From Chloroflexota bacterium (GTDB lineage Bacteria > Chloroflexota > Dehalococcoidia > SZUA-161): a stretch of 41,594 bases of DNA. Of this stretch, positions 11,056 through 27,592 are shown in pieces. The position numbers and the translations under genes are program-made. Each line of letters begins with the position of its first letter. The stretch's first letter is position 1. The notes under the pieces are model-generated. The model was not told the DNA's origin. It did no database searches and was given only the letters and a program-made list of their open reading frames with translations. The stretch lies in the NCBI GenBank assembly GCA_021787935.1, contig JAJYLC010000009.1, forward strand, positions 1 through 41,594, given 5' to 3'.

Positions 11056-13506
11056 ATGGCCACGGTTTCAGAGAAGAGGTTGACCCAAAAACTGGCAGAC
11101 CAGTTCCGTTACAGAACAATAATGGGACAGCGCGACTACCGGGTCGAGGAGGAGGAAAGGCTGGGCAAGATAAGTCACATCCGGCGAACGCTGAAGCTTG
11201 ATATCGAGCGCGCCCGCTATGTAACGCAAGCCTACAAGGAAAACGAGGGAGAGCCCATTGTTATTAGAAGGGCCAAAGCGATGGCCAATCATCTGGATAA
11301 CATGACCATCTATATAGGCGAGCACGACCGGATTGCGGGCAACACCGCTATAACCCCCGACCATACGATAAGCTATCCCGAGCTGTACTGCCGGTGGGTA
11401 GACAAGGCTATCGATATGGGCTACAGAGAAATGCTTCCCGACGAACACAGGGCAGAGATGCATGAGATTAACAAGTACTGGATGAACAAGTCTATACATG
11501 GAACTGAGCGTTTTCTGGTGCAAGAGGAAGACAAGCCCTATTGGTCTTACATGAATCAAGGAGCGTTCATCTGGGTGCACGGCGCGCACTCCGGCCAGAT
11601 GCCGAATTACCAGAAGATATTCAGGGTTGGTTTGAACGGCATACTCAAGGAGGCTCAGGACAAACTAAATGAAGTAAAGGCCAATAGAGAATTGATCCGC
11701 GATAATCCTAGAGATTTCCTGAAGAAGAAGGCTTTCCTGGAAGCTGTCATTATAAGCACCGAAGCAGCCATCAGGTGGTCGAAAAGGTATTCTGAATTGG
11801 CTCAGGCAATGGCTGCTGTGGAAGAAAGCGAGCAGAGGAAAAAGGAACTGGAGCAGATCGCTGAGGCCTGTAAGTGGGTCCCGGGCAACCCGCCTAGGAC
11901 ATTTTTCGAGACCCTGCAGTGCTGGTTCCTCATTATGCTGCTGGTCAGAGTACTCGATATCCAGACAGTTGGTATCGGCGACAGGGTTGATTATATCTGG
12001 TATCCATCCTACAAGAAGGACAAAGAGCGGGGACAAATAACCCCGGAGGAAGCTCAGGAGTTAATCGAGCATATCTGGCTGAAGCTTACCGAACTGACGG
12101 ATTTCAATGCGCCCATAATGGCAAGCGGCGGTCATACCACCCCTAGATACATAACAATCGGTGGTCAGGATCATCTGGGACGGGACGCTACCAACGAGCT
12201 GACCTACATAATCATGGACAGCGTCAAGGCTTTGAAGCTGGTCGAGCCCATGATGGTAGTCAGACTCCACCGCAACACACCGGACGAGTTCCTTTACCGG
12301 TTCACAGATATCCTGAGACAGGATGCCGGTCACTACGGCATCTTCAACGATGAGTTCATGGTACCGTACCTGATGAGCAAGGGTTTTTCAGTGGAGGATG
12401 CCAGAAACTGGGCCGTCGAGGACTGCATGAGACATACGGTGGTGGGCAAGCCTATGGGGCACAGAGCCATCGCCGGTCCGGGCTTCATGCTTCCCAAGTG
12501 CCTGGAATATGCCCTGTATCAGGGAAAAGACTACAAATTTTTCGACGGTAAGCAGATAGGGGCTCCTACTCCTGATCCGCTGACGTTCACTTCCATTGAC
12601 GATATGGTCAATGCTTATCTTGAGCAGGTGAGATTCTTCACTGAGAAGATAGTGATTTTCAGCAATATAACCGATGCTATCGAAGAGCAGTGGCTGCCAC
12701 AGCCTTTTAACTCGGCCCTCCTTGACGGCTGTATTGAGAATGCCATGGACGTCAGAGAGCTTCATTACTGGCACAAGACCAATATCCAGCCCGTGGGACA
12801 TACCACGGTGGTCAATGCGCTGGTAGCGATGAAGAAGCTGGTCTTCGAAGAAAAGAAAGCCACCATGGCGCAACTTTTGCAGGCTCTCAGGGATGACTGG
12901 GAAGGCCATGAGGAGCTGCGCAGCATGTTCCTGAACGCCCCAAAATTCGGCAATGATGACGATTACGTTGACCTTTTCGCCAGGGATATCCACATTAAAA
13001 CCTGTCAGGTGATGCAGGGTTTCAAAACGATATACGGCCACAAGGTTACCTGCGATGGCAGCGGAGGCGCTAGCTATTTCCACTTCGCGGGGCTTACCGG
13101 AGCAACCCCGGACGGAAGGAAAGACCGCGGCCTGTTTAACGACGGCACTATCTCTCCGGAGATCGGCACCGACAAAAAAGGGCCGACCGCTGTGCTCAAA
13201 TCTGTCTCCAAGATAGACCCTATGGTAACGTTCAACCACCTGTTCAATCAGAGGGTCATGCCTGAGTTCCTGGAAGGCGATAACAGGGCGAAGTTCGTGG
13301 CATACCTGAGGACCTTCGTTGACCTGGGGATTCACCACATCCAGTTCAATATCATCGACGACAAAATTCTGCGAGATGCCCAGGCTCATCCGGACAACCA
13401 CCAGGACCTGATTGTCAGGGTCGCCGGTTTCAGCGCTTACTTTGTGGACATGAACAGCGAAGTGCAGGAACAGATTATCACCAGGACGAAACAAAGGATT
13501 GCCTGA
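11056..13506 (+). CDS. Glycyl-radical enzyme (pyruvate formate-lyase superfamily), first tandem copy
   Basis: An 816-residue PFL-like glycyl-radical enzyme. The C-terminal radical loop is RVAGFSA with the radical-bearing Gly791, 26 residues from the end as expected. The Cys-loop reads VEDCMRH with the catalytic Cys457. Eliminases and decarboxylases of this superfamily (choline lyase, glycerol dehydratase, 4-hydroxyphenylacetate decarboxylase) have GCxE at this point; here Asp precedes the Cys and Arg stands where the Glu should be. It therefore does not fit those classes, and the reaction is unknown. X-succinate synthases also lack the Cys-x-Glu, so radical addition is one option. No activating radical-SAM enzyme and no Bss-type small subunits are nearby. 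The ATG is preceded by GGGGAGGGAGG. A close paralogue follows after 41 bases. Confidence 0.93.
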   Translation: MATVSEKRLTQKLADQFRYRTIMGQRDYRVEEEERLGKISHIRRTLKLDIERARYVTQAYKENEGEPIVIRRAKAMANHLDNMTIYIGEHDRIAGNTAITPDHTISYPELYCRWVDKAIDMGYREMLPDEHRAEMHEINKYWMNKSIHGTERFLVQEEDKPYWSYMNQGAFIWVHGAHSGQMPNYQKIFRVGLNGILKEAQDKLNEVKANRELIRDNPRDFLKKKAFLEAVIISTEAAIRWSKRYSELAQAMAAVEESEQRKKELEQIAEACKWVPGNPPRTFFETLQCWFLIMLLVRVLDIQTVGIGDRVDYIWYPSYKKDKERGQITPEEAQELIEHIWLKLTELTDFNAPIMASGGHTTPRYITIGGQDHLGRDATNELTYIIMDSVKALKLVEPMMVVRLHRNTPDEFLYRFTDILRQDAGHYGIFNDEFMVPYLMSKGFSVEDARNWAVEDCMRHTVVGKPMGHRAIAGPGFMLPKCLEYALYQGKDYKFFDGKQIGAPTPDPLTFTSIDDMVNAYLEQVRFFTEKIVIFSNITDAIEEQWLPQPFNSALLDGCIENAMDVRELHYWHKTNIQPVGHTTVVNALVAMKKLVFEEKKATMAQLLQALRDDWEGHEELRSMFLNAPKFGNDDDYVDLFARDIHIKTCQVMQGFKTIYGHKVTCDGSGGASYFHFAGLTGATPDGRKDRGLFNDGTISPEIGTDKKGPTAVLKSVSKIDPMVTFNHLFNQRVMPEFLEGDNRAKFVAYLRTFVDLGIHHIQFNIIDDKILRDAQAHPDNHQDLIVRVAGFSAYFVDMNSEVQEQIITRTKQRIA

Positions 13507-13547
13507 GTAAATCACGCTGCGGCAAAGGCCTCAAGGGGAGGTTGGAA

Positions 13548-16004
13548 ATGACTGTGGTGGATGAGAAAAGGTTAACCGAGAAGTTGGCAGACCAGGCGCG
13601 CTACAGGAGCGGGATGGGCGGGCAGCAGCGTGCCGGCCGCAGGCTCGACGAGCAGGAAATACGAAACCAGGTGAGTGACCTGCGTCCCGGCCTTAAGATT
13701 GATATCCAGCGCGCCCGCCTTGTCACACAGGCCTACAAGGAAAATGATGGCGAACCAATAGTAATTAGAAGAGCAAAAGCATTAGCCAATTTCCTTGACA
13801 ATATGTCTTTGTATCTAGGTGAGCATGACCGCATAGTCGGTAATTCGTCGAGGACTCCGGACCACACTATCAGCTACCCTGAGCTGTACAGCCGCTGGCT
13901 CGATAAGGCCATCGACATGGGCTACAAAAGCATGTTGACGGACGAAGAAAGGGCCGAGATGCACGAGATCAACAAATACTGGCTGAACAAGTCTACGCAA
14001 GGTCTCGAGCGTTTCATTCTCGCCGATGAAGATAAACCCTACTGGTCGTATTTCAATCAAGGGGTATTTATCTGGGTGCATGGTTACCACGCCGGCCAGA
14101 TGCCCAATTACGAGAAACTTTTCAAAATTGGCCTGAAGGGATTGCTGAAACAAGCCCAGGACAAGCTGGCAGAAATAAAAAGCGATAGAAGTCTTATCCG
14201 CGACAATCCCCGGGAATTCCTCAAGAAGAAAGCGTTCCTGGAAAGCGTCATAATATCACTAGAAGCAGGTATCAGGTGGAGCAAGAGATATGCCGAGCTC
14301 GCCCGAGCCATGGCTCGCGAAGCGAATTCGGAGAGACGAAAGGAGCTCGAACAAATCGCCGAGGCGTGTGAGTGGGTGCCCGAGAACCCGCCGCGGACAT
14401 TTTTTGAAGCTCTGCAGTTCTGGTATTTCATTTTCCTCATCAACAGGGTTATCGACATGCAAACTGCCGGTATCGGCGACAGATTTGATTACCTCTTCTA
14501 TCCTTTCTTCAAGAAAGATAAGGATGAGGGCAGGATAACCCGGGAAGACGCGCAGGAGCTGCTGGAACACGTCTGGATCAAACTTACCGAGCATCCCGAC
14601 CTGAATCCACCGATTATGGCCAGCGCTTCCAAGGCTACCCTGCGCTATCTGACTATCGGCGGACAGGACAGCCTGGGGAAAGACGTAACCAACGAGTTGA
14701 CCTACATACTCATGGACAGCGTCAAGTCCCTGAAGTTAACTGAACCGATGATATGCGTGAGACTTCACCGCAATACCCCGGACGAATTCCTTTACCGGTT
14801 CACGGACGTTCTGAGGCAGGATGCCGGTCACTACGGCATCTTCAACGATGAGTACATGGTGCCGTATCTGATGAGTAAAGGCATACCGCCCCAAGATGCG
14901 CGGAACTGGGCAGTTGAGGACTGCCTGAGACACACCGTAGTCGGCAAGCCCATGAGTCACCGTGCGATCTCGGGCATGGGATTCGCCTTGCCCAAGTGCA
15001 TGGAGTACGCCCTGAATCAAGGAAGAGACTACAAATTTTTTGAGGGGAAACAAATAGGCTACCCGACCCCCGATCCGCTTACCTTTACCTCAATCGAAGA
15101 CGCCATCCGGGCATACCTGAAGCAGGTAAAGTTCTTCTCCGAAAAAGTAGTAATGTTGGCGAACATAACAGATGCCCTCGAAGAGCAGTGGCTGCCCCAG
15201 CCTTTTAACTCGGCTATGCTAGACGGCTGCATTCAAAATGCCACCGATCTCCGGGAATTGCACTACTGGCATAAGACTAATATGCAGCCCGTCGGCCAGA
15301 CAACGGTAGTGAACTCGCTGGTAGCTATGAAGAAGCTGGTCTTTGAAGATAAAATAGCCACCATGGCGGAGCTTCTGCAGGCTCTCAGGGACAACTGGGA
15401 AGGCCATGAAGAGCTACGGCGGAAATTCCTCGATGCTCCTAAATTCGGCAACGACGATGACTATGTCGACCTTTTCGCCAGGAATGTCCATATCAGAACG
15501 TGCCAGACAATGCATGCGTTTAAGACGATATACGGGCATAACGTAACCTGTGACGGGAGTGGCAGTGTAAGCTATTTCAACTTCAGCGGCTTCACAGGCG
15601 CTACACCGGACGGCAGACAGGACCGTGACCTGTTCAACGATGGCACCATCTCTCCATTGCCCGGCACCGATAAGAAAGGGCCGACCGCTGTGCTCAAATC
15701 GGTTGCCAAGGTGGAGCCTTTGCTGACCTTCAATCACCTGTTTAACCAGAGGTGGACGCCTGAGTCCCTGGAAGGCGATAACAGATCCAAGTTCGTGGGA
15801 TACCTCAGGACATTCGTCGACCTGGGCATCCACCACATTCAGGGGAACGTGATTCACGACAAGGTGCTCTATGACGCTCAGAAGCACCCTGAAGATCATC
15901 AGGACCTGATAGTCAGGATAGCCGGGTTCAGTGCCTATTTCATCGACTTGCACAAAGAGGTGCAGGACCAGCTGATCTCCAGGACGAAGCAGAAGCTCTC
16001 CTAG
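13548..16004 (+). CDS. Glycyl-radical enzyme (pyruvate formate-lyase superfamily), second tandem copy
   Basis: An 818-residue paralogue of the preceding enzyme, very similar over its whole length, so the pair arose by tandem duplication. The radical loop is RIAGFSA (Gly793) and the Cys-loop is VEDCLRH (Cys459), with the same unusual Arg at Cys+2. The two copies differ at clustered positions that could shape the substrate pocket: MASASKATLRY replaces MASGGHTTPRY, and SVSYFNFSGF replaces GASYFHFAGL. This suggests related but not identical substrates, or a heterodimer. The start is ATG 13548 because GGGGAGG lies six bases upstream and the N-terminus then aligns with copy one; a TTG two codons earlier is less likely. 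It is followed by a repeat-containing gap of about 160 bases before the CoA-transferases. Confidence 0.93.
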   Translation: MTVVDEKRLTEKLADQARYRSGMGGQQRAGRRLDEQEIRNQVSDLRPGLKIDIQRARLVTQAYKENDGEPIVIRRAKALANFLDNMSLYLGEHDRIVGNSSRTPDHTISYPELYSRWLDKAIDMGYKSMLTDEERAEMHEINKYWLNKSTQGLERFILADEDKPYWSYFNQGVFIWVHGYHAGQMPNYEKLFKIGLKGLLKQAQDKLAEIKSDRSLIRDNPREFLKKKAFLESVIISLEAGIRWSKRYAELARAMAREANSERRKELEQIAEACEWVPENPPRTFFEALQFWYFIFLINRVIDMQTAGIGDRFDYLFYPFFKKDKDEGRITREDAQELLEHVWIKLTEHPDLNPPIMASASKATLRYLTIGGQDSLGKDVTNELTYILMDSVKSLKLTEPMICVRLHRNTPDEFLYRFTDVLRQDAGHYGIFNDEYMVPYLMSKGIPPQDARNWAVEDCLRHTVVGKPMSHRAISGMGFALPKCMEYALNQGRDYKFFEGKQIGYPTPDPLTFTSIEDAIRAYLKQVKFFSEKVVMLANITDALEEQWLPQPFNSAMLDGCIQNATDLRELHYWHKTNMQPVGQTTVVNSLVAMKKLVFEDKIATMAELLQALRDNWEGHEELRRKFLDAPKFGNDDDYVDLFARNVHIRTCQTMHAFKTIYGHNVTCDGSGSVSYFNFSGFTGATPDGRQDRDLFNDGTISPLPGTDKKGPTAVLKSVAKVEPLLTFNHLFNQRWTPESLEGDNRSKFVGYLRTFVDLGIHHIQGNVIHDKVLYDAQKHPEDHQDLIVRIAGFSAYFIDLHKEVQDQLISRTKQKLS

Positions 16005-19983: not shown

Positions 19984-21225
19984 ATGCCTGCAATGGAAAC
20001 CAAAGCGCAGACATACAAAGCGTACAGCTATAGATGGGTCATCCTGGCTGTATTCATGTACATAGCCGCCCTGACCCAGTTGTACTGGCTGAACTTCTCG
20101 GCTATAGACACCTATGTCGAAGACAATTTACATATCTCTGCATTCAGCGTCAGCCTGTTAACGCTGGTCTTCCCTCTGGTGTACGTTCTGCTTTCCCTGC
20201 CTTCAGGCATGATTATCGATAAGAAGGGGTTCAAGTACAGCATAGGCATAGGTGCCATTTTCACCGGCGTCTTCAGCATCATCCGCATAATCAATCCCTA
20301 CTCATATCCCTTTCTTCTGATGTCACAGATAGGGATTTCCGTAGGCCAGCCCTTCATCTTGAATGGGATCACCAAGCTTGTGGTAACCTGGTTTCCGCAG
20401 AAAGAAGAGGCCACCGCAGTAGGGCTGGGCTCTCTAGCGTTGTTCATCGGCATGGTCATCAGCCTGGGAGCAACTCCTGTCCTGGTAGACTCCCTCGGGC
20501 TTAGAGCTATGCTGTTGGTCTACGGCATCATAGGAATCGCGGGCATGCTGCTGTTCTATTTGCTGGTCAGGGATAAGCCTCCCACACCTGCCAGAGAGCT
20601 AAAAGAAGAAGAGAAAATCTCCATCCGGGAAGGCATGAAAAGCATCCTGAGGATCAGAGACTTTGTAATCCTGGGATTCGTAGCTTTAATCGGCATCGGG
20701 GTCTTCAACGGGCTGGCCACCTGGTTGGAGAAAATATTGAACGAACTGCATGGCATCTCCATGGTCGATGCCGGCAGCATATCTTCGGTGTTAGTCTTCA
20801 GCGGCATGCTCGGCTGCATTATCATTCCCATAATCTCAGATAGAATCAAAAAAAGAAAGCCCTTTCTTGTCCTGGCGTCTTTAGTAGGGGCTGTATGTGT
20901 CGTTGTCCTTATGTTTGGCAGCGGCTATGCAGTCAACCTGGGCAATGGCATAGTGCTGGGCTTCTTCCTGCTGTCGGCCCTGCCCATCATGCTCACCATG
21001 TCCATCGAGATCACAGGTGAAAAATACGCAGGAATCTCCGTAGCCTATCTACAGCTTCTGGGCAACGGGGCAGCCGTAGCCATCGTACCCATAATGGAGG
21101 TTTTACACGGCGTAAGAGGCACGTATTATTTACCTCTTGTTTTCATAGCAGTATTACTTGCTATCGCCATAGTGATGGCCGTTCGAATCAGAGAAACAGG
21201 TAAAACCGCCCTGGCCCCAGGGTAA
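19984..21225 (+). CDS. MFS transporter, FLVCR/MFSD7-like
   Basis: A 413-residue major facilitator with twelve hydrophobic segments. The YSYRWVILAVFMYIAALTQ start, the LNFSAIDTYVEDNLHIS loop and the LPSGMIIDKKGFKYSIG loop 2-3 motif resemble the FLVCR-like branch, which moves small organic ligands. The central cytoplasmic loop between helices 6 and 7 is charged (ARELKEEEKISIREGMKSI). It probably takes up, or exports, the substrate of the adjacent operon. The start is ATG 19984, though ATG 19993 is equally possible because a weak AGG lies near both. The 160-base gap from the dehydrogenase leaves room for a separate promoter. Confidence 0.88.
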   Translation: MPAMETKAQTYKAYSYRWVILAVFMYIAALTQLYWLNFSAIDTYVEDNLHISAFSVSLLTLVFPLVYVLLSLPSGMIIDKKGFKYSIGIGAIFTGVFSIIRIINPYSYPFLLMSQIGISVGQPFILNGITKLVVTWFPQKEEATAVGLGSLALFIGMVISLGATPVLVDSLGLRAMLLVYGIIGIAGMLLFYLLVRDKPPTPARELKEEEKISIREGMKSILRIRDFVILGFVALIGIGVFNGLATWLEKILNELHGISMVDAGSISSVLVFSGMLGCIIIPIISDRIKKRKPFLVLASLVGAVCVVVLMFGSGYAVNLGNGIVLGFFLLSALPIMLTMSIEITGEKYAGISVAYLQLLGNGAAVAIVPIMEVLHGVRGTYYLPLVFIAVLLAIAIVMAVRIRETGKTALAPG

Positions 21226-21505: not shown

Positions 21506-22375
21506 TTGAACGGAAGTTGGGCAAGTTTCCCGGCTGATTTAGTTGCCGCAATTTTTGCAGCAGCCCTTGCTTTCACGGCAGGCCTTGTGTACCCAGCTAT
21601 CCCAAAGTCACGTCAAGCACTTCACGTGCGACATTTCTGGGGCAAAGGGGCGCTTGAGCAGGACTTCACGATATCTTACGGCGCCTTCCTGGATTCCCGA
21701 CTTCTGGAACCTCTCCCCCCAAAACTCAGGTATGTGAAAAATTATCATGATGGAAGGCGAGTACAATTTGTCGGACCATGGGAACTGGTAGCTGCGCTCG
21801 CGGAGTTACGCTCGGCATCGTATATTCTCAATGCGCTAAGCAAACACAGGAAAGAACCGATCAGCGTTGTAGTTGATGAAGACGCCTTTAAGAATATGAG
21901 CCGAACAGTTATATCACTGGGTAGTTCCTTGAGTAACGAGATTACTGACCTCATAATGCGTGAGCCAAACAATGCTTTCTTCGAGTTTGTCCATGATGCC
22001 GAAACTACTTATATAAAAGATAAAAGAACGGGCAGGGCTTTCAGAGGTTTCGAAGAGCCGGTGAAAAAGGACGTGGGTATTGTCCTCAAGATTGAGAACC
22101 TGAGATTTCCCGGTCACTTCTTTTTCGTCTGTGCTGGCTTAGGTGAATGGGGGACCTCCGGCGCTTCCTGGTATCTGGCTAACAAGTGGCGTGACCTGGA
22201 CAGAGAATTTAAAGGTGGCTTTGGCCTTGTGATTGAAGTTGCCTGGGGATGTGACCAGAGCGCTCACAGAATCTTCCCGCTTCCACCTGAGAAGGGTACA
22301 ATATTCAAAAGAGGCTATGCTCGATTGCGGAATCTATCTAATTTATTCCTCAAAGGGACCCCAGCCGAGAACTAG
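21506..22375 (+). CDS. Membrane-anchored protein of unknown function
   Basis: A 289-residue protein I do not recognise. Residues about 8-29 form one hydrophobic helix (LVAAIFAAALAFTAGLVYPAI), followed by a soluble domain, so it is probably a single-pass membrane protein with a cytoplasmic or exposed C-terminal domain. The soluble part has alternating strands and helices (VRHFWGKGALEQDFTISYG; FFFVCAGLGEWGTSGASWYLA). The start is TTG 21506, with AAGGAG eight bases upstream. It stands alone between the MFS gene and the toxin-antitoxin pair, with intergenic DNA on both sides, and looks like an accessory gene. The FVCAGLGEWGTSGA stretch is reminiscent of a nucleotide- or ligand-binding turn, but I would not assign a function from it. 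Confidence 0.7.
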   Translation: MNGSWASFPADLVAAIFAAALAFTAGLVYPAIPKSRQALHVRHFWGKGALEQDFTISYGAFLDSRLLEPLPPKLRYVKNYHDGRRVQFVGPWELVAALAELRSASYILNALSKHRKEPISVVVDEDAFKNMSRTVISLGSSLSNEITDLIMREPNNAFFEFVHDAETTYIKDKRTGRAFRGFEEPVKKDVGIVLKIENLRFPGHFFFVCAGLGEWGTSGASWYLANKWRDLDREFKGGFGLVIEVAWGCDQSAHRIFPLPPEKGTIFKRGYARLRNLSNLFLKGTPAEN

Positions 22376-23439: not shown

Positions 23440-23469
23440 TTGACATACCTGGCTGCCCAGAAGCATAAT
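23440..23469 (+). promoter_or_regulatory. Promoter of the kinase-RLP-dehydrogenase cassette
   Basis: TTGACA (23440-23445), an 18-base spacer and CATAAT (23464-23469), ending 26 bases before the kinase ATG. It is divergent from the toxin promoter, and the two lie within about 60 bases, so the toxin-antitoxin pair and the cassette share one control region. Confidence 0.6.
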
Positions 23470-23495
23470 GGCCTTGCAGGTAACAGTGTAAGTAT

Positions 23496-25049
23496 ATGGC
23501 TAAATACATCATAGCCCACGATGTAGGCACCAGCGGGAACAAGGCTGTACTCGTAGATACCGAAGGGCATGTCCACGGCAAATGCTTCGAGCCCTACCGG
23601 GTCTGCTATCCCAGGCCCGACTGGGCCGAGCAGGAGCCCGAGGACTGGTGGAAAGCCGTCACACACACCACCAGGCTCCTCCTGGAACAGACAGGCGCAC
23701 CGCCCGCCGATGTGCTGTGCATCACGTTCGGCGCGCAACTGCTGGGCGTCGTCCCAATGGATTCAAAGACCGGACCCCTCAGGCCTGCCATAATCTGGCT
23801 GGACAACCGGGCCTGCAATCAAGCTAACCGCGTCATGAGAAAGTTCATCGGCCCTCGCCTTTTCGCTCTCATCGCCGGCACTGCCCTCTGCGGCAAGGAC
23901 GGCATACCCAAACTGCTCTGGCTCAAGGAGAAAGAGCCCGATATCTACAAAAAGATGAGTTGCTTCCTCGACGTCGGAGGCTACCTCATCTACCGGTGCA
24001 CCGGCAACATAGTCATGGAGTGGACCGGCGCCTCGGTGTTCGGACTGGACCTCAAGAAAAAGAAATGGCTCAGCAGCATTTTCCGCTACGTGGGACTCGA
24101 CCCGGCGAAATTTCCGCCCTTGGTGAAACCCATTGATAAGGTAGGTACGCTGTCGAAGGAAGCAGCGAGCGAATGCGGCCTGCTGGGGGGCACGCCTGTC
24201 ATCGCAGGCGCAGGAGACGCCCCCTGCGCCGCCGTGGGCTCGGGCGCAGTGGGTGAAGGAGATGGGCACGTCTATCTCGGCACATCTAGCTGGGTGGGCG
24301 TGGTCACCGAGCGCACCGTAAAAGGCAAGTGCGGCGCAGCCTCGATCCATTCGGCAGACCCAGGTAAGGCGTTTTTGTTTGCCGAGAGCGAGACCGCAGG
24401 GGCCTGCATTCAATGGATGGCCGAGCAGTTGTACAGTAATCCAGGCTCTAACATCGGCGATGTGTACGCCCTGATGGGCGAGAAAGCCGCGCAAATACCG
24501 CCCGGCTCCGGCCATCTCATTTTCACACCCTGGATGTACGGAGAGAGAGCACCTATCAGCGACTGCAACGTACGCTCTAGCTTCCTGAACTTGAGTGCCG
24601 AGCATACCCGCGACCACCTGCTCCGCGCCGTTTACGAGGGGATAGCCTATAATATCAGGTGGATAGTGGAAATCATCGAAAAGGAGTACAAATTCCCGCT
24701 TCCTCATCTAAGAGTAATCGGAGGAGGAGCTAAAGCTGCACCGCTGATGCAGATTCTGGCAGACGTCACCCAGAGGAAAGCTGAGACTGTGCGCTACCCG
24801 CAGGAAGCGGGGGCGGTAGGGGCGGCCATGGTAGCGGCGGTGGGCCTGGGGATTTATCCCAGCTTCGAGGCCCTGAAAAAGGTGGTCAGTGCGGACAAGG
24901 CATTCGAGCCCCGGAAAGAGAACCGAGAAATCTATGATTCTCTCTATGGGACTTACCACGAAGCGTACCGCAGCCTGCGCGGTTTCTATAAAAGGCTCAA
25001 CGAGCGGAGAGCTGTTCAACAACGTTCCTGTGAGGAGGTGCCTGGGTGA
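23496..25049 (+). CDS. FGGY-family carbohydrate kinase (xylulokinase-like)
   Basis: A 517-residue sugar kinase of the FGGY family, two actin-like domains. Features are the phosphate-1 loop HDVGTSGNKAVLVDTEG at the N-terminus, DWAEQEPEDWWKAV, the catalytic-base Asp241 in GAGDAPCAAVGSG, and the C-terminal VIGGGAKAAPLMQILADVT and PQEAGAVGAAMVA. It should phosphorylate a ketose, polyol or sugar acid. FGGY specificity is not readable here, and xylulokinase is only the nearest general type. The ATG at 23496 has a weak upstream AGG. Its stop overlaps the GTG start of the RuBisCO-like gene by four bases (GTGA), so the two proteins are translationally coupled and the kinase product is probably, directly or after oxidation, the RLP substrate. 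Confidence 0.9.
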   Translation: MAKYIIAHDVGTSGNKAVLVDTEGHVHGKCFEPYRVCYPRPDWAEQEPEDWWKAVTHTTRLLLEQTGAPPADVLCITFGAQLLGVVPMDSKTGPLRPAIIWLDNRACNQANRVMRKFIGPRLFALIAGTALCGKDGIPKLLWLKEKEPDIYKKMSCFLDVGGYLIYRCTGNIVMEWTGASVFGLDLKKKKWLSSIFRYVGLDPAKFPPLVKPIDKVGTLSKEAASECGLLGGTPVIAGAGDAPCAAVGSGAVGEGDGHVYLGTSSWVGVVTERTVKGKCGAASIHSADPGKAFLFAESETAGACIQWMAEQLYSNPGSNIGDVYALMGEKAAQIPPGSGHLIFTPWMYGERAPISDCNVRSSFLNLSAEHTRDHLLRAVYEGIAYNIRWIVEIIEKEYKFPLPHLRVIGGGAKAAPLMQILADVTQRKAETVRYPQEAGAVGAAMVAAVGLGIYPSFEALKKVVSADKAFEPRKENREIYDSLYGTYHEAYRSLRGFYKRLNERRAVQQRSCEEVPG

Positions 25050-26359
25050 ATACCGAAGAAATCCTGAGCTTGCCGGTAGCGTTGCCCGATGGGGTGGACT
25101 ACGATGATTATCTTATTGCCACCTACCTAGCTTCTTTCGCAGCGGTATGGCCGATTCCCGTGCTGGCCGAGGCGCTTGCCATCGAGCAGAGCACGGGCAC
25201 GTGGGTCGCTGTACCCGGCGAGACGCCCGAGGTACGCTGCCAGCATGTAGCCAAGGTAATTGGTGTGTATGAGGCGCCCGATTATGAGTTCGAGGTGCCC
25301 CAGTCTCTGGAAACGAGGAACTGGATTATCCAGGTCGCCTACCCTGAAGTCAACATCGGTGAGCAGCTACCCATGCTGCTGACCACTGTGGTGGGCAACA
25401 TTTCGATGGGCGGGAATATCAAACTGCTGGACGTACGCTTCCCCAAGAAATTCGTCGCCGGCTTCAAAGGCCCCAAGTTCGGCATCGCAGGCATCAGGAA
25501 ACTCCTGAAAATCCCCAAACGGCCCCTGCTCAACAATATGATTAAGCCCTGCACAGGTTATACATTGGAGGTTGGCGCTGAATTGTTCCGCAAAGCTGCC
25601 CTGGGCGGCTGCGATATCATAAAGGACGATGAGCTGATAGCCGATGCCTCGTTCAACTCCATAAAAGGGCGTGTCAAGCGCTACATGGAGATAGAGAAAC
25701 AGGTCTACGAGGAGACAGGGGAGCACACCCTGTACACTGTGAATATAACAGATAAGATACCGAAGGTGTTTCAGAACGCCAAACGCGCTGTGGAGCTAGG
25801 CTGCAATGCCCTTATGATAAACTATCTCGCAGTGGGACTGCCGGTGATGCAGGCGCTGGCAGAGGACCCCAAAATAAATGTCCCCATCCTGGCGCACATG
25901 GATGTCGCTGGCGCCCTGTATATGTCGCCGCTGCACGGAGTAAGCTCCCATCTGGTACTGGGCAAGCTGCCGCGTTTAGCCGGCGCCGATGTCGTGGTCA
26001 TCCCGGCCCCCTATGGCAAAGCGCCGGTCATACCTGATAAGTTCCGCAACGTTGCCAAGAACCTGACATTCCCTCTGTACCATCTCAAGCCGACCTTCCC
26101 CATGCCTTCCGGCGGAATCACGCCGTCCATGGTGACGCAGGTCATCACCGACCTGGGAACCGACATCGTAATCGGCTCGGGAGGCGGCATTCACGCCCAT
26201 CCTCAGGGGCCTATCGCTGGCGGGAAAGCATTCCGTCAGGCCATTGATGCCGTAATGCAGGGCATTCCCCTTGAGGAGTATGCTAAAGACCATGCAGAGC
26301 TTGATATTGCACTCAAAGAGTGGAGCGACCCGTTCGGCAAAGGAGTCGCCGCCCGATAA
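25046..26359 (+). CDS. RuBisCO-like protein (form IV large-subunit homologue)
   Basis: A 437-residue RuBisCO large-chain homologue. It keeps the lysine of the KPxxG loop (Lys167 in IKPCTGYT), the carbamylated lysine and two metal acids in KDDE (Lys193, Asp195, Glu196), HMDVAG in the next strand, a lysine in the loop-6 position (PAPYGKAP), the PSGGI phosphate loop and GSGGGIHAHPQGP. The RuBisCO sequences HRAMH and GxxGKLEG are altered, so it should not fix CO2. Known form IV enzymes act as enolases or isomerases in methionine salvage, or as decarboxylases of phosphorylated oxo-isoapionate (OiaX). The neighbouring kinase favours the sugar-acid type. The GTG start has GAGGAGG seven bases upstream and overlaps the kinase stop. 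Confidence 0.9.
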   Translation: MNTEEILSLPVALPDGVDYDDYLIATYLASFAAVWPIPVLAEALAIEQSTGTWVAVPGETPEVRCQHVAKVIGVYEAPDYEFEVPQSLETRNWIIQVAYPEVNIGEQLPMLLTTVVGNISMGGNIKLLDVRFPKKFVAGFKGPKFGIAGIRKLLKIPKRPLLNNMIKPCTGYTLEVGAELFRKAALGGCDIIKDDELIADASFNSIKGRVKRYMEIEKQVYEETGEHTLYTVNITDKIPKVFQNAKRAVELGCNALMINYLAVGLPVMQALAEDPKINVPILAHMDVAGALYMSPLHGVSSHLVLGKLPRLAGADVVVIPAPYGKAPVIPDKFRNVAKNLTFPLYHLKPTFPMPSGGITPSMVTQVITDLGTDIVIGSGGGIHAHPQGPIAGGKAFRQAIDAVMQGIPLEEYAKDHAELDIALKEWSDPFGKGVAAR

Positions 26360-26374
26360 GGAAAGGAGAAGGAA

Positions 26375-27592
26375 ATGTCCAGGGTTACAGTCTTAGGAGG
26401 CTCGGGAGCAGTCGGCAGCGTTGCCGCAGAGATCCTAGCTTCCAGCGGATTTTTCTCCGAAATAGTTCTCGCCGACGCCCGACTGGAACTGGCAAAGAAG
26501 CTGGCTCAGAGGCTCGAAATAAAGAAAGCCTCAGCTATTAAATTCGATGCGTCAGACCCACAGAGCATTAAGAAGGCAGTCGCCGGTTCAGACGTTGTCC
26601 TGAACTGTGTCGGCCCGTTCTATAAGTACGGCCCCGCCATCTTAAAGGCGGTTATAGAGGCCAAAATCAACTACGTCGATATCTGCGACGATTTCGATGC
26701 CACGGAAAAGATGCTGGGCATGGATAAGGCCGCCAAAAAGGCAGGCGTCTCAGCCCTGATCGGGATGGGAAGCTCTCCGGGCATCGCCAACGTGCTGGTC
26801 AGGTTCTGCGCCGATTCTCTGCTCGACCTCGTGGAAGCGGTTGATATATATCACGCTCACGGCGGCGAGAAGATAGAAGGCCCCGCCGTGGTCAAACACA
26901 GGATACATTCCATGAAAGCAGACGTGCCCATGTTCCTCAAGGGAAAATTCACCACCGTCAGGCTCTTTGAGAAGAGCGGAAAGGCGCTGGAGGAAGAGAT
27001 CGAGTTCAGAGACGTAGGCACGTACAGCGTTTATGCCTATCCGCATCCTGAGACTATAACCCTGCCCTGCTACCTGAAGGGAGTGAAGCGGGTAACCAAT
27101 CTGGGGCTGGTGCTGCCGCCGGCCTACGCAGAGCTGATAAAAGGAATGGTGAGGCTGGGCGTGACCGATGAAGAACCGATTGAGGTGCAAAGTCATTGCG
27201 TTATCCCTCTGGAATTTGCGGTTGCCTTTATACTCTCCAGGCGGAAGAATCTGATGAAAGAAGCCGGCCTCGCCGGCCCCATGGGCTGTCTCAAGATAGT
27301 GGTGAAAGGCTCCAAGGACGGCAAAAAGAGCACCTACATTTTTTCCATGTCCTCGAAGAGGCAGGGGATGGGCGAGGGCACAGGCATTCCCGCAGCGCTG
27401 GGGGCGATGCTGATGGGGACAGGCAGAATAACAGAGAAGGGCGTCCTGCCGCCCGAGGCGTGTATCGAGCCGATGGAAGTGCTGGAGCTGGCGCGCACCA
27501 AAATTAGCGCAGGCGGAGGCAAAGGCTTTCCCATCGTAATTGAGCACATAGACAGCTACGGTAGATCAAAGACCGTAGACCTTTTCAAATAG
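26375..27592 (+). CDS. Saccharopine dehydrogenase-like NAD(P)-binding oxidoreductase
   Basis: A 405-residue protein of the saccharopine dehydrogenase (Lys9/LYS1-like) family. The N-terminal VTVLGGSGAVGSVAAEILAS is the Rossmann dinucleotide loop, followed by ADARLELAKKLAQ, the VLNCVGPFYKYGPAILKAVI segment and YVDICDDFDAT, all typical of the family. Members reduce or oxidise amino-acid or keto-acid derivatives, and many have no known substrate. It lies 15 bases after the RuBisCO-like gene with AAGGAGAAGG before its ATG and is the last gene of the cassette. A role in oxidising the sugar before, or reducing the product after, the RLP step is inferred from position alone. A TTGCAA/TATAAT promoter for thrS begins 16 bases past its stop. 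Confidence 0.85.
   Translation: MSRVTVLGGSGAVGSVAAEILASSGFFSEIVLADARLELAKKLAQRLEIKKASAIKFDASDPQSIKKAVAGSDVVLNCVGPFYKYGPAILKAVIEAKINYVDICDDFDATEKMLGMDKAAKKAGVSALIGMGSSPGIANVLVRFCADSLLDLVEAVDIYHAHGGEKIEGPAVVKHRIHSMKADVPMFLKGKFTTVRLFEKSGKALEEEIEFRDVGTYSVYAYPHPETITLPCYLKGVKRVTNLGLVLPPAYAELIKGMVRLGVTDEEPIEVQSHCVIPLEFAVAFILSRRKNLMKEAGLAGPMGCLKIVVKGSKDGKKSTYIFSMSSKRQGMGEGTGIPAALGAMLMGTGRITEKGVLPPEACIEPMEVLELARTKISAGGGKGFPIVIEHIDSYGRSKTVDLFK

Follow-up and report, generated by a model that had tools for sequence, protein, structure and literature searches.

The stretch of DNA analysed here, 41,594 nucleotides of contig JAJYLC010000009.1 (assembly GCA_021787935.1, from a Chloroflexota bacterium of the Dehalococcoidia; hereafter the window), carries three consecutive forward-strand genes encoding an FGGY carbohydrate kinase, a RuBisCO-like protein (RLP) and an NAD(P) oxidoreductase that resembles saccharopine dehydrogenases (SDH). 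The cassette is a conserved unit across phyla, beyond a chance arrangement, with the kinase and the RLP alone as its constant core, and it suggests a so far undescribed route for a compound resembling an amino or hydroxy sugar. The open reading frames, including the GTGA overlap of kinase and RLP and the 15-base gap before the oxidoreductase gene, were confirmed where the original prediction had placed them:

23440-23469, + strand: candidate operon promoter, sigma-70-like, TTGACA-18-CATAAT, matching 11/12 consensus positions, with the kinase ATG 26 bases downstream
23496-25049, + strand: FGGY carbohydrate kinase, 517 aa, ATG start, TGA stop
25046-26359, + strand: RLP, 437 aa, GTG start within GTGA, a 4-base overlap with the kinase TGA
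25397-25399, + strand: RLP Asn118 (spinach N123; position of the MtnW catalytic Lys98), by alignment
25622-25633, + strand: RLP Lys193-Asp-Asp195-Glu196, the carbamylation lysine and Mg ligands, by alignment
26018-26020, + strand: RLP Lys325 (RuBisCO loop-6 Lys334), by alignment
26375-27592, + strand: SDH-like NAD(P) oxidoreductase, 405 aa, starting 15 bases past the RLP stop
19984-21225, + strand: MFS transporter outside the operon, probable pathway importer, judged by 64% identity to the MFS protein of locus L011 and by the neighbourhoods of relatives

GC content by codon position is of the coding type in the three cassette genes alike, and the Pfam domains of all three products score above their gathering thresholds; no NCBIfam family passes its cut-off for any of them. 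The cassette had been predicted to lie under one promoter. The match at 23440-23469 agrees with this, but the region holds six promoter-like matches against 3.6 +/- 1.8 in shuffled sequence, and a single promoter for the whole cassette is thus no more than plausible, the candidate match being weak on its own. A thrS-like gene and other translation genes lie 3' of the operon, and the window genome contains one RLP.

The RLP search covered 84,980 species genomes and yielded 68 loci. Of the 51 bacterial loci that have 0.8 kb or more of upstream sequence, 47 show, in our own gene calls, a kinase gene upstream of the RLP gene on the same strand, counting one (L060) in which the kinase is split into two pieces. 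The four kinase-less loci are L018 and L021, whose genomes each carry another RLP locus with a kinase, L063, at a contig end, and L121, from a clostridium with a phosphotransferase system (PTS). The pair is found in Chloroflexota, Caldiserica/Cryosericota, Actinomycetota, Myxococcota and Clostridia. Among 197 genomes drawn evenly from the class, with orthologues defined by identities of at least 75% (RLP), 60% (kinase) and 65% (SDH), the RLP occurs in 10 genomes, the kinase in 11 and the SDH in 8; the RLP adjoins the kinase in 10/10 and the SDH stands beside the RLP in 8/8 (hypergeometric p 6e-16 for kinase-RLP adjacency, and 9e-13, in a calculation that ignores relatedness). The eleventh kinase, in a genome without the RLP (G181), ends 167 bases short of a contig end. 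The three genes had been expected to stay together in related genomes: the kinase and RLP do so constantly, whereas the SDH is swapped for a class-III aminotransferase (AT).

Some loci are arranged differently. In L032, L033 and L035, from Thermoflexia and a related genome of Anaerolineae, kinase and RLP are separated by a gene of 307-486 aa with no above-threshold Pfam match, and a gene for an HD-domain phosphohydrolase comes after. In Lokiarchaeota (L051-L053, L056, L057) the neighbours of the RLP are a leucine-rich-repeat-like protein and conserved genes without a recognised function, and none of kinase, AT and SDH is near. Loci L064-L069, also picked up by the RLP search, proved to be form III-type RuBisCOs and served as outgroup; at least L064 comes with a ribose-1,5-bisphosphate (R15P) isomerase gene.

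The RLP has RuBisCO large-chain domains (RuBisCO_large PF00016, 156 bits; RuBisCO_large_N PF02788, 37.5 bits) in which catalytic residues are replaced (K177C, R295M and H327P in spinach numbering), which places it among the form IV RLPs and outside the bona fide RuBisCOs of forms I-III, since K177, R295 and H327 are not intact. Residues were compared in an alignment of 85 proteins (letters for PDB references were taken from further alignments; reference 6hun, here and in the tree, is Hyperthermus butylicus). The KPxxG lysine, carbamylation lysine and metal acids named in the original prediction are all present, KPCTG holding K167 (spinach K175) and IKDDE holding K193, D195 and E196 (K201, D203, E204); the prediction was silent on the retained loop-6 lysine, on the loss of P5 ligands and on the probable transporter. 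The clade retains N123, K175, K201, D203, E204, H294, K334 and SGG at 379-381, with rare deviations (for example G379 in L030 and L121), and has Cys at position 177 (Asn in Clostridia), Met at 295 (Val/Ala in outliers) and Pro at 327 (Gly/Ser in outliers). The N123 position is Asn in every clade row and Lys in the MtnW-type references 2oek, 2zvi, 3fk4 and 4nas and in L091/L093; the loop-6 position 334 is Lys in all clade rows that cover it and Ser/Thr in MtnW-type rows, and MtnW has SAG where the clade has SGG.

RuBisCO holds the P1 phosphate of its substrate with T65, K334, G381, G403 and G404 and the P5 phosphate with R295, H327 and S379. The P1 set is kept and R295 and H327 are lost, and the RLP thus appears to retain P1 phosphate binding, mostly without P5 binding, as would suit a singly phosphorylated substrate whose tail is uncharged. 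We infer from these residues that the RLP is an enolase or isomerase acting on such a substrate; it is possibly a (de)carboxylase instead.

In a tree built without the R. rubrum RLP, OiaX and the hamamelose-pathway RLPs, 29 clade rows group together (98/98), separate from MtnW (98/91) and nearer to form III (96/93). The predicted position outside MtnW was borne out, as placement of the window RLP inside the MtnW clade is rejected (approximately unbiased (AU) test, p 0.00016); the test does not reject the whole clade as sister group of MtnW (AU p 0.087), and sisterhood with form III or with MtnW is thus unsettled. In this tree, which lacks the R. rubrum sequence, the R. palustris RLP 3qfw, which we take to belong to IV-DeepYkr (R. 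rubrum type), lies far from the clade on long branches. The case for a new RLP subfamily, a clade of its own, and for a new pathway is strong as a gene system and weak as chemistry.

Among characterised enzymes MtnW (form IV-YkrW) is closest in sequence and fold, being the best profile, PDB and fold match: the AlphaFold model of the RLP (pLDDT 92.6) fits best to MtnW 2oem with 2,3-diketohexane 1-phosphate (TM 0.88/0.94, about 40% identity), and the carbamate/Mg triad, H294 and P327 are shared. In its active site the RLP comes closest to true form III RuBisCOs, the archaeal enzymes sharing N123, K175, the triad, H294, K334 and SGG; the RLP differs from them by K177C, R295M and H327P, scores 266 bits against the form III model (cut-off 497), and has neither a phosphoribulokinase nor an R15P isomerase as a partner that could be seen in its neighbourhood. 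A divergent RLP in a genome of the same order (G042; L112, 3422-4714, - strand) is about 40% identical, has Glu at the N123/MtnW-Lys98 position and lies near a lexA gene and a gene for an ornithine/arginine-type decarboxylase; it is possibly another undescribed RLP type.

The third gene product is a member of the saccharopine-dehydrogenase family (Sacchrp_dh_NADP PF03435, 71.9 bits; Sacchrp_dh_C PF16653, 45.7 bits), and nine aligned members have a long invariant core in common. Its structure model (pLDDT 88) has 4ina, 8h50, 8deb and 3abi as best folds, the matches being carboxyspermidine dehydrogenases, lysine dehydrogenase and saccharopine reductases at about 20% identity. Fold and two-domain architecture are shared with carboxy(nor)spermidine dehydrogenase and lysine 6-dehydrogenase; the operon SDH differs from them in its low identity and in scoring 54.1 bits against the carboxynorspermidine synthase model (cut-off 800), and no polyamine genes were recognised in the neighbourhood.

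The SDH gene directly follows the RLP gene in 17 loci; the window is one of 15 from Chloroflexota, and the other two are BMS3Bbin03 (L015) and a genome of Caldiserica (L025). The AT is of a glutamate-1-semialdehyde (GSA)-aminomutase-like type in Clostridia, Myxococcota and part of the Dehalococcoidia, and of an amino-acid-racemase-like type in Anaerolineae and Thermoflexia. Anaerovorax odorimutans SL.3.17 is a named strain among the carriers of an operon of the AT type. In whole-genome searches of Chloroflexota and relatives the two enzymes are mutually exclusive, the SDH occurring in 20 genomes, the AT in 11 and both in 0: no AT orthologue was found in the 20 SDH genomes (best matches 33-39%, HemL-like), the 11 genomes without an RLP-adjacent SDH hold the AT at 70-100% identity, often at a separate locus, and no SDH orthologue was found genome-wide in G012, G144, G204, G210, G211, G213 and G214. 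In the RLP tree L020, which has the SDH, falls among AT-bearing rows, and L025 (SDH) and L026 (AT) are sisters; the exchange thus occurred more than once and does not reflect one ancestral split. Because SDH and AT exclude each other, the pattern suggests a single interchangeable amine-to-carbonyl step performed by non-homologous enzymes, in support of which the fold relatives of the SDH (carboxyspermidine, lysine and saccharopine dehydrogenases) are all amine enzymes.

The kinase (FGGY_N PF00370, 7e-49; FGGY_C PF02782, 2e-33) is xylulokinase-like, its closest PDB entry being the xylulose kinase 2itm (178 bits), and lies outside the xylulokinase family as modelled by XylB (327.7 bits, cut-off 380.25). 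It has the domains of the xylulokinase/L-fuculokinase class and differs from it in falling under all curated family cut-offs and in partner genes unlike those of xylose and fucose operons. A role as an LsrK-like autoinducer-2 kinase was considered and rejected (LsrK model 179 bits, XylB 328). In two clostridial loci, L121 (6989-9855, - strand) and L122 (9239-18545, + strand), a PTS IIBC gene lies 4-62 bases past the clade RLP, followed by EI, EIIA, a short-chain dehydrogenase/reductase (SDR) and a sigma-54 activator/PTS regulator, with no FGGY kinase; here the PTS apparently stands in for the kinase, which supports a phosphorylated substrate of the sugar or polyol type. Since either a kinase or a PTS adjoins the RLP, the substrate of the RLP is probably phosphorylated.

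The operon may thus quite possibly, if tentatively, be assigned to the salvage or catabolism of a small hydroxylated, probably amino-bearing compound, with an amino-polyol or amino-keto compound as the substrate class that we favour. The compound would be taken up, in some members by the MFS carrier. The SDH here, or the AT in relatives, would remove the amine to leave a carbonyl (a ketose or keto compound), and the FGGY kinase, replaced by the PTS permease in the two clostridia, would phosphorylate one terminal hydroxyl, these two steps coming in one order or the other. The RLP, with K193 carbamylated and Mg2+ on D195/E196, would hold the single phosphate in its P1 site, take the alpha proton to give an enediolate and reprotonate it, such that the keto-phosphate is enolised, isomerised or epimerised. 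In Clostridia an MtnX-like phosphatase may then dephosphorylate the product; alternatively, in some genomes, a fuculose-1-phosphate-type class II aldolase possibly cleaves it to dihydroxyacetone phosphate (DHAP) and an aldehyde.

Several points weigh against this scheme. Actinomycetota and Myxococcota hold SDH (48-57% identical) and AT together, the SDH lying, where the loci are readable, beside a second FGGY kinase and away from the RLP, so that the two enzymes need not share one step. Some SDH-family proteins, the Rv2953-type enoyl reductases, do not act on amines. The retained K334 and SGG are also compatible with a (de)carboxylase, in Lokiarchaeota and some Helarchaeota both kinase and SDH are missing from the surroundings of the RLP, and the reactions of all members are inferred from sequence. 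We would give only a slim chance to the more far-reaching proposal that the RLP represents a new RuBisCO-fold function, acting through nearly all of the RuBisCO machinery for proton abstraction and loop 6 on a monophosphate derived from an amino-sugar-like compound in an anaerobic pathway of Chloroflexota, Asgard archaea and Clostridia, possibly with making or breaking of a C-C bond (carboxylation or decarboxylation).

The RLP might instead carboxylate or decarboxylate its substrate, as an OiaX-like enzyme or a monophosphate RuBisCO, with the kinase acting on a sugar or keto acid. This would account for the retention of N123, K175, the carbamate/metal triad, loop-6 K334 and SGG and for the distant likeness of the MFS protein to D-galactonate transporters. 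We consider it unlikely, given the change of K177 to Cys, the loss of R295 and H327, and the fact that no sugar-acid dehydratase or DUF1537 kinase was seen nearby. OiaX (3-oxo-isoapionate-4-phosphate decarboxylase) is likewise an RLP that receives its substrate from a sugar(-acid) kinase, its partner belonging to the DUF1537 family and thus to a different family from the operon kinase; the operon RLP scores 187.2 bits against the OiaX model (NF042437, cut-off 700), and oxo-isoapionate decarboxylation, put forward earlier as a nearest precedent, is not the closest one.

Alternatively, the SDH could be a polyol-phosphate or enoyl oxidoreductase in an ordinary deoxy-ketose pathway, the AT pattern being a coincidence of lineage. 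The Myxococcota SDH adjoins fatty-acid-type genes and many SDH/AT exchanges do track lineages, but the exclusion extends over 31 genomes and crosses lineage lines at L020 and L025/L026, and the fold neighbours are amine dehydrogenases, which makes this explanation improbable too.

Less probable still is a methionine salvage role, in which the RLP is an MtnW or MSP-like branch acting on a 5-deoxy- or 5-methylthio-pentulose-1-phosphate, FGGY replaces MtnK and AT/SDH makes the final amino acid: the top profile is MtnW (NF007095/PRK09549, 401.8 bits, cut-off 409; TIGR03332, 363.6 bits, cut-off 513.6), as are the closest solved structures and folds, the clostridial operon has an MtnX-like phosphatase and a class II aldolase, from the family to which MtnB also belongs, lies upstream of the AT in four genomes, but Lys98, the general base of MtnW, is Asn clade-wide, the loop-6 Lys and SGG are kept in place of Ser and SAG, the RLP falls outside the MtnW clade and is partnered by FGGY, the aldolase is closest to FucA/ribulose-1-phosphate aldolase and AraD rather than MtnB, and neither acireductone dioxygenase (ARD, MtnD) nor MtnX has a match in the window's own genome (G000; B. 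subtilis controls were positive). The lack of ARD, MtnX and Lys98 makes the MtnW/MtnX/MtnD route unlikely. PNP and MtnA genes 5' of the operon in L059 were set aside, as they occur in one genome only and an opposite-strand TetR regulator intervenes.

For the salvage or catabolic operon that we favour, further partners are found in relatives. The clostridial order is TetR (- strand), FGGY, (MFS), AT, RLP, MtnX-like HAD phosphatase. The MFS family recurs directly after the SDH (L011), within the operon (L061), after or beside the AT (L143) and near the AT (L026), with a relative near a class II aldolase in L171; the window MFS protein probably imports the pathway substrate, judging from its likeness to that of L011. 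In G012 the AT lies beside a branched-chain-amino-acid-type ABC transporter. The FucA-like aldolase gene immediately precedes the AT gene in G204, G210 (split frame), G211 and G213, and in L044 it lies about 1.6 kb past the RLP; the link is weaker because relatives of this aldolase also accompany other FGGY cassettes.

No description of an RLP operon with an FGGY kinase or SDH was found in the full text of open-licence PMC papers, in line with the earlier statement that no pathway could be named for the cassette. None of the form IV subgroups as listed is defined by a kinase-RLP neighbourhood (PMC10173188), and RuBisCO large-subunit genes of unclear function have been reported from Chloroflexota sediments (PMC11650866). 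The Hakuba actinobacterial RLP, beside an epimerase and a DeoR-type domain (PMC7325909), was set aside as its membership of the clade is not established.

Only few RLP reactions are known, and the clade, found widely among uncultured anaerobes of the Chloroflexota, Asgard archaea, Actinomycetota, Myxococcota and Clostridia, bears on how RuBisCO chemistry diversified, having a near-complete RuBisCO active site from which the second phosphate site is largely removed. Its RLPs, 7 bits below one cut-off, are easily misannotated as MtnW, and such genes should not be taken as evidence of CO2 fixation or methionine salvage. The constant kinase partner and exchangeable amine enzyme offer a short, testable path to the substrate.

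Other genes of the window lie 5' of the cassette. Between the MFS gene and the kinase is a gene for a 289-aa protein (21506-22375, +) without a Pfam or NCBIfam match. Two tandem glycyl-radical-enzyme-like paralogues (11056-13506 and 13542-16004, +; 816 and 820 aa, 74% identity), which end with an RVAGFSAYF-like C-terminal motif, precede two genes for CoA-transferase III and one for an acyl-CoA dehydrogenase; no activase was recognised among the long open reading frames adjoining the pair. These glycyl-radical, CoA-transferase and acyl-CoA dehydrogenase genes were rejected as operon partners because their adjacency is not conserved in relatives. Other unnamed FGGY-kinase cassettes recur in these anaerobes: in L174 (2191-10250, +) a 2-hydroxyacid dehydrogenase, FGGY kinase and class II aldolase cassette occurs with a glycolate-oxidase-type FAD enzyme, and in L173 (6023-9454, +) the 2-hydroxyacid dehydrogenase and FGGY kinase are fused in one 888-aa protein.

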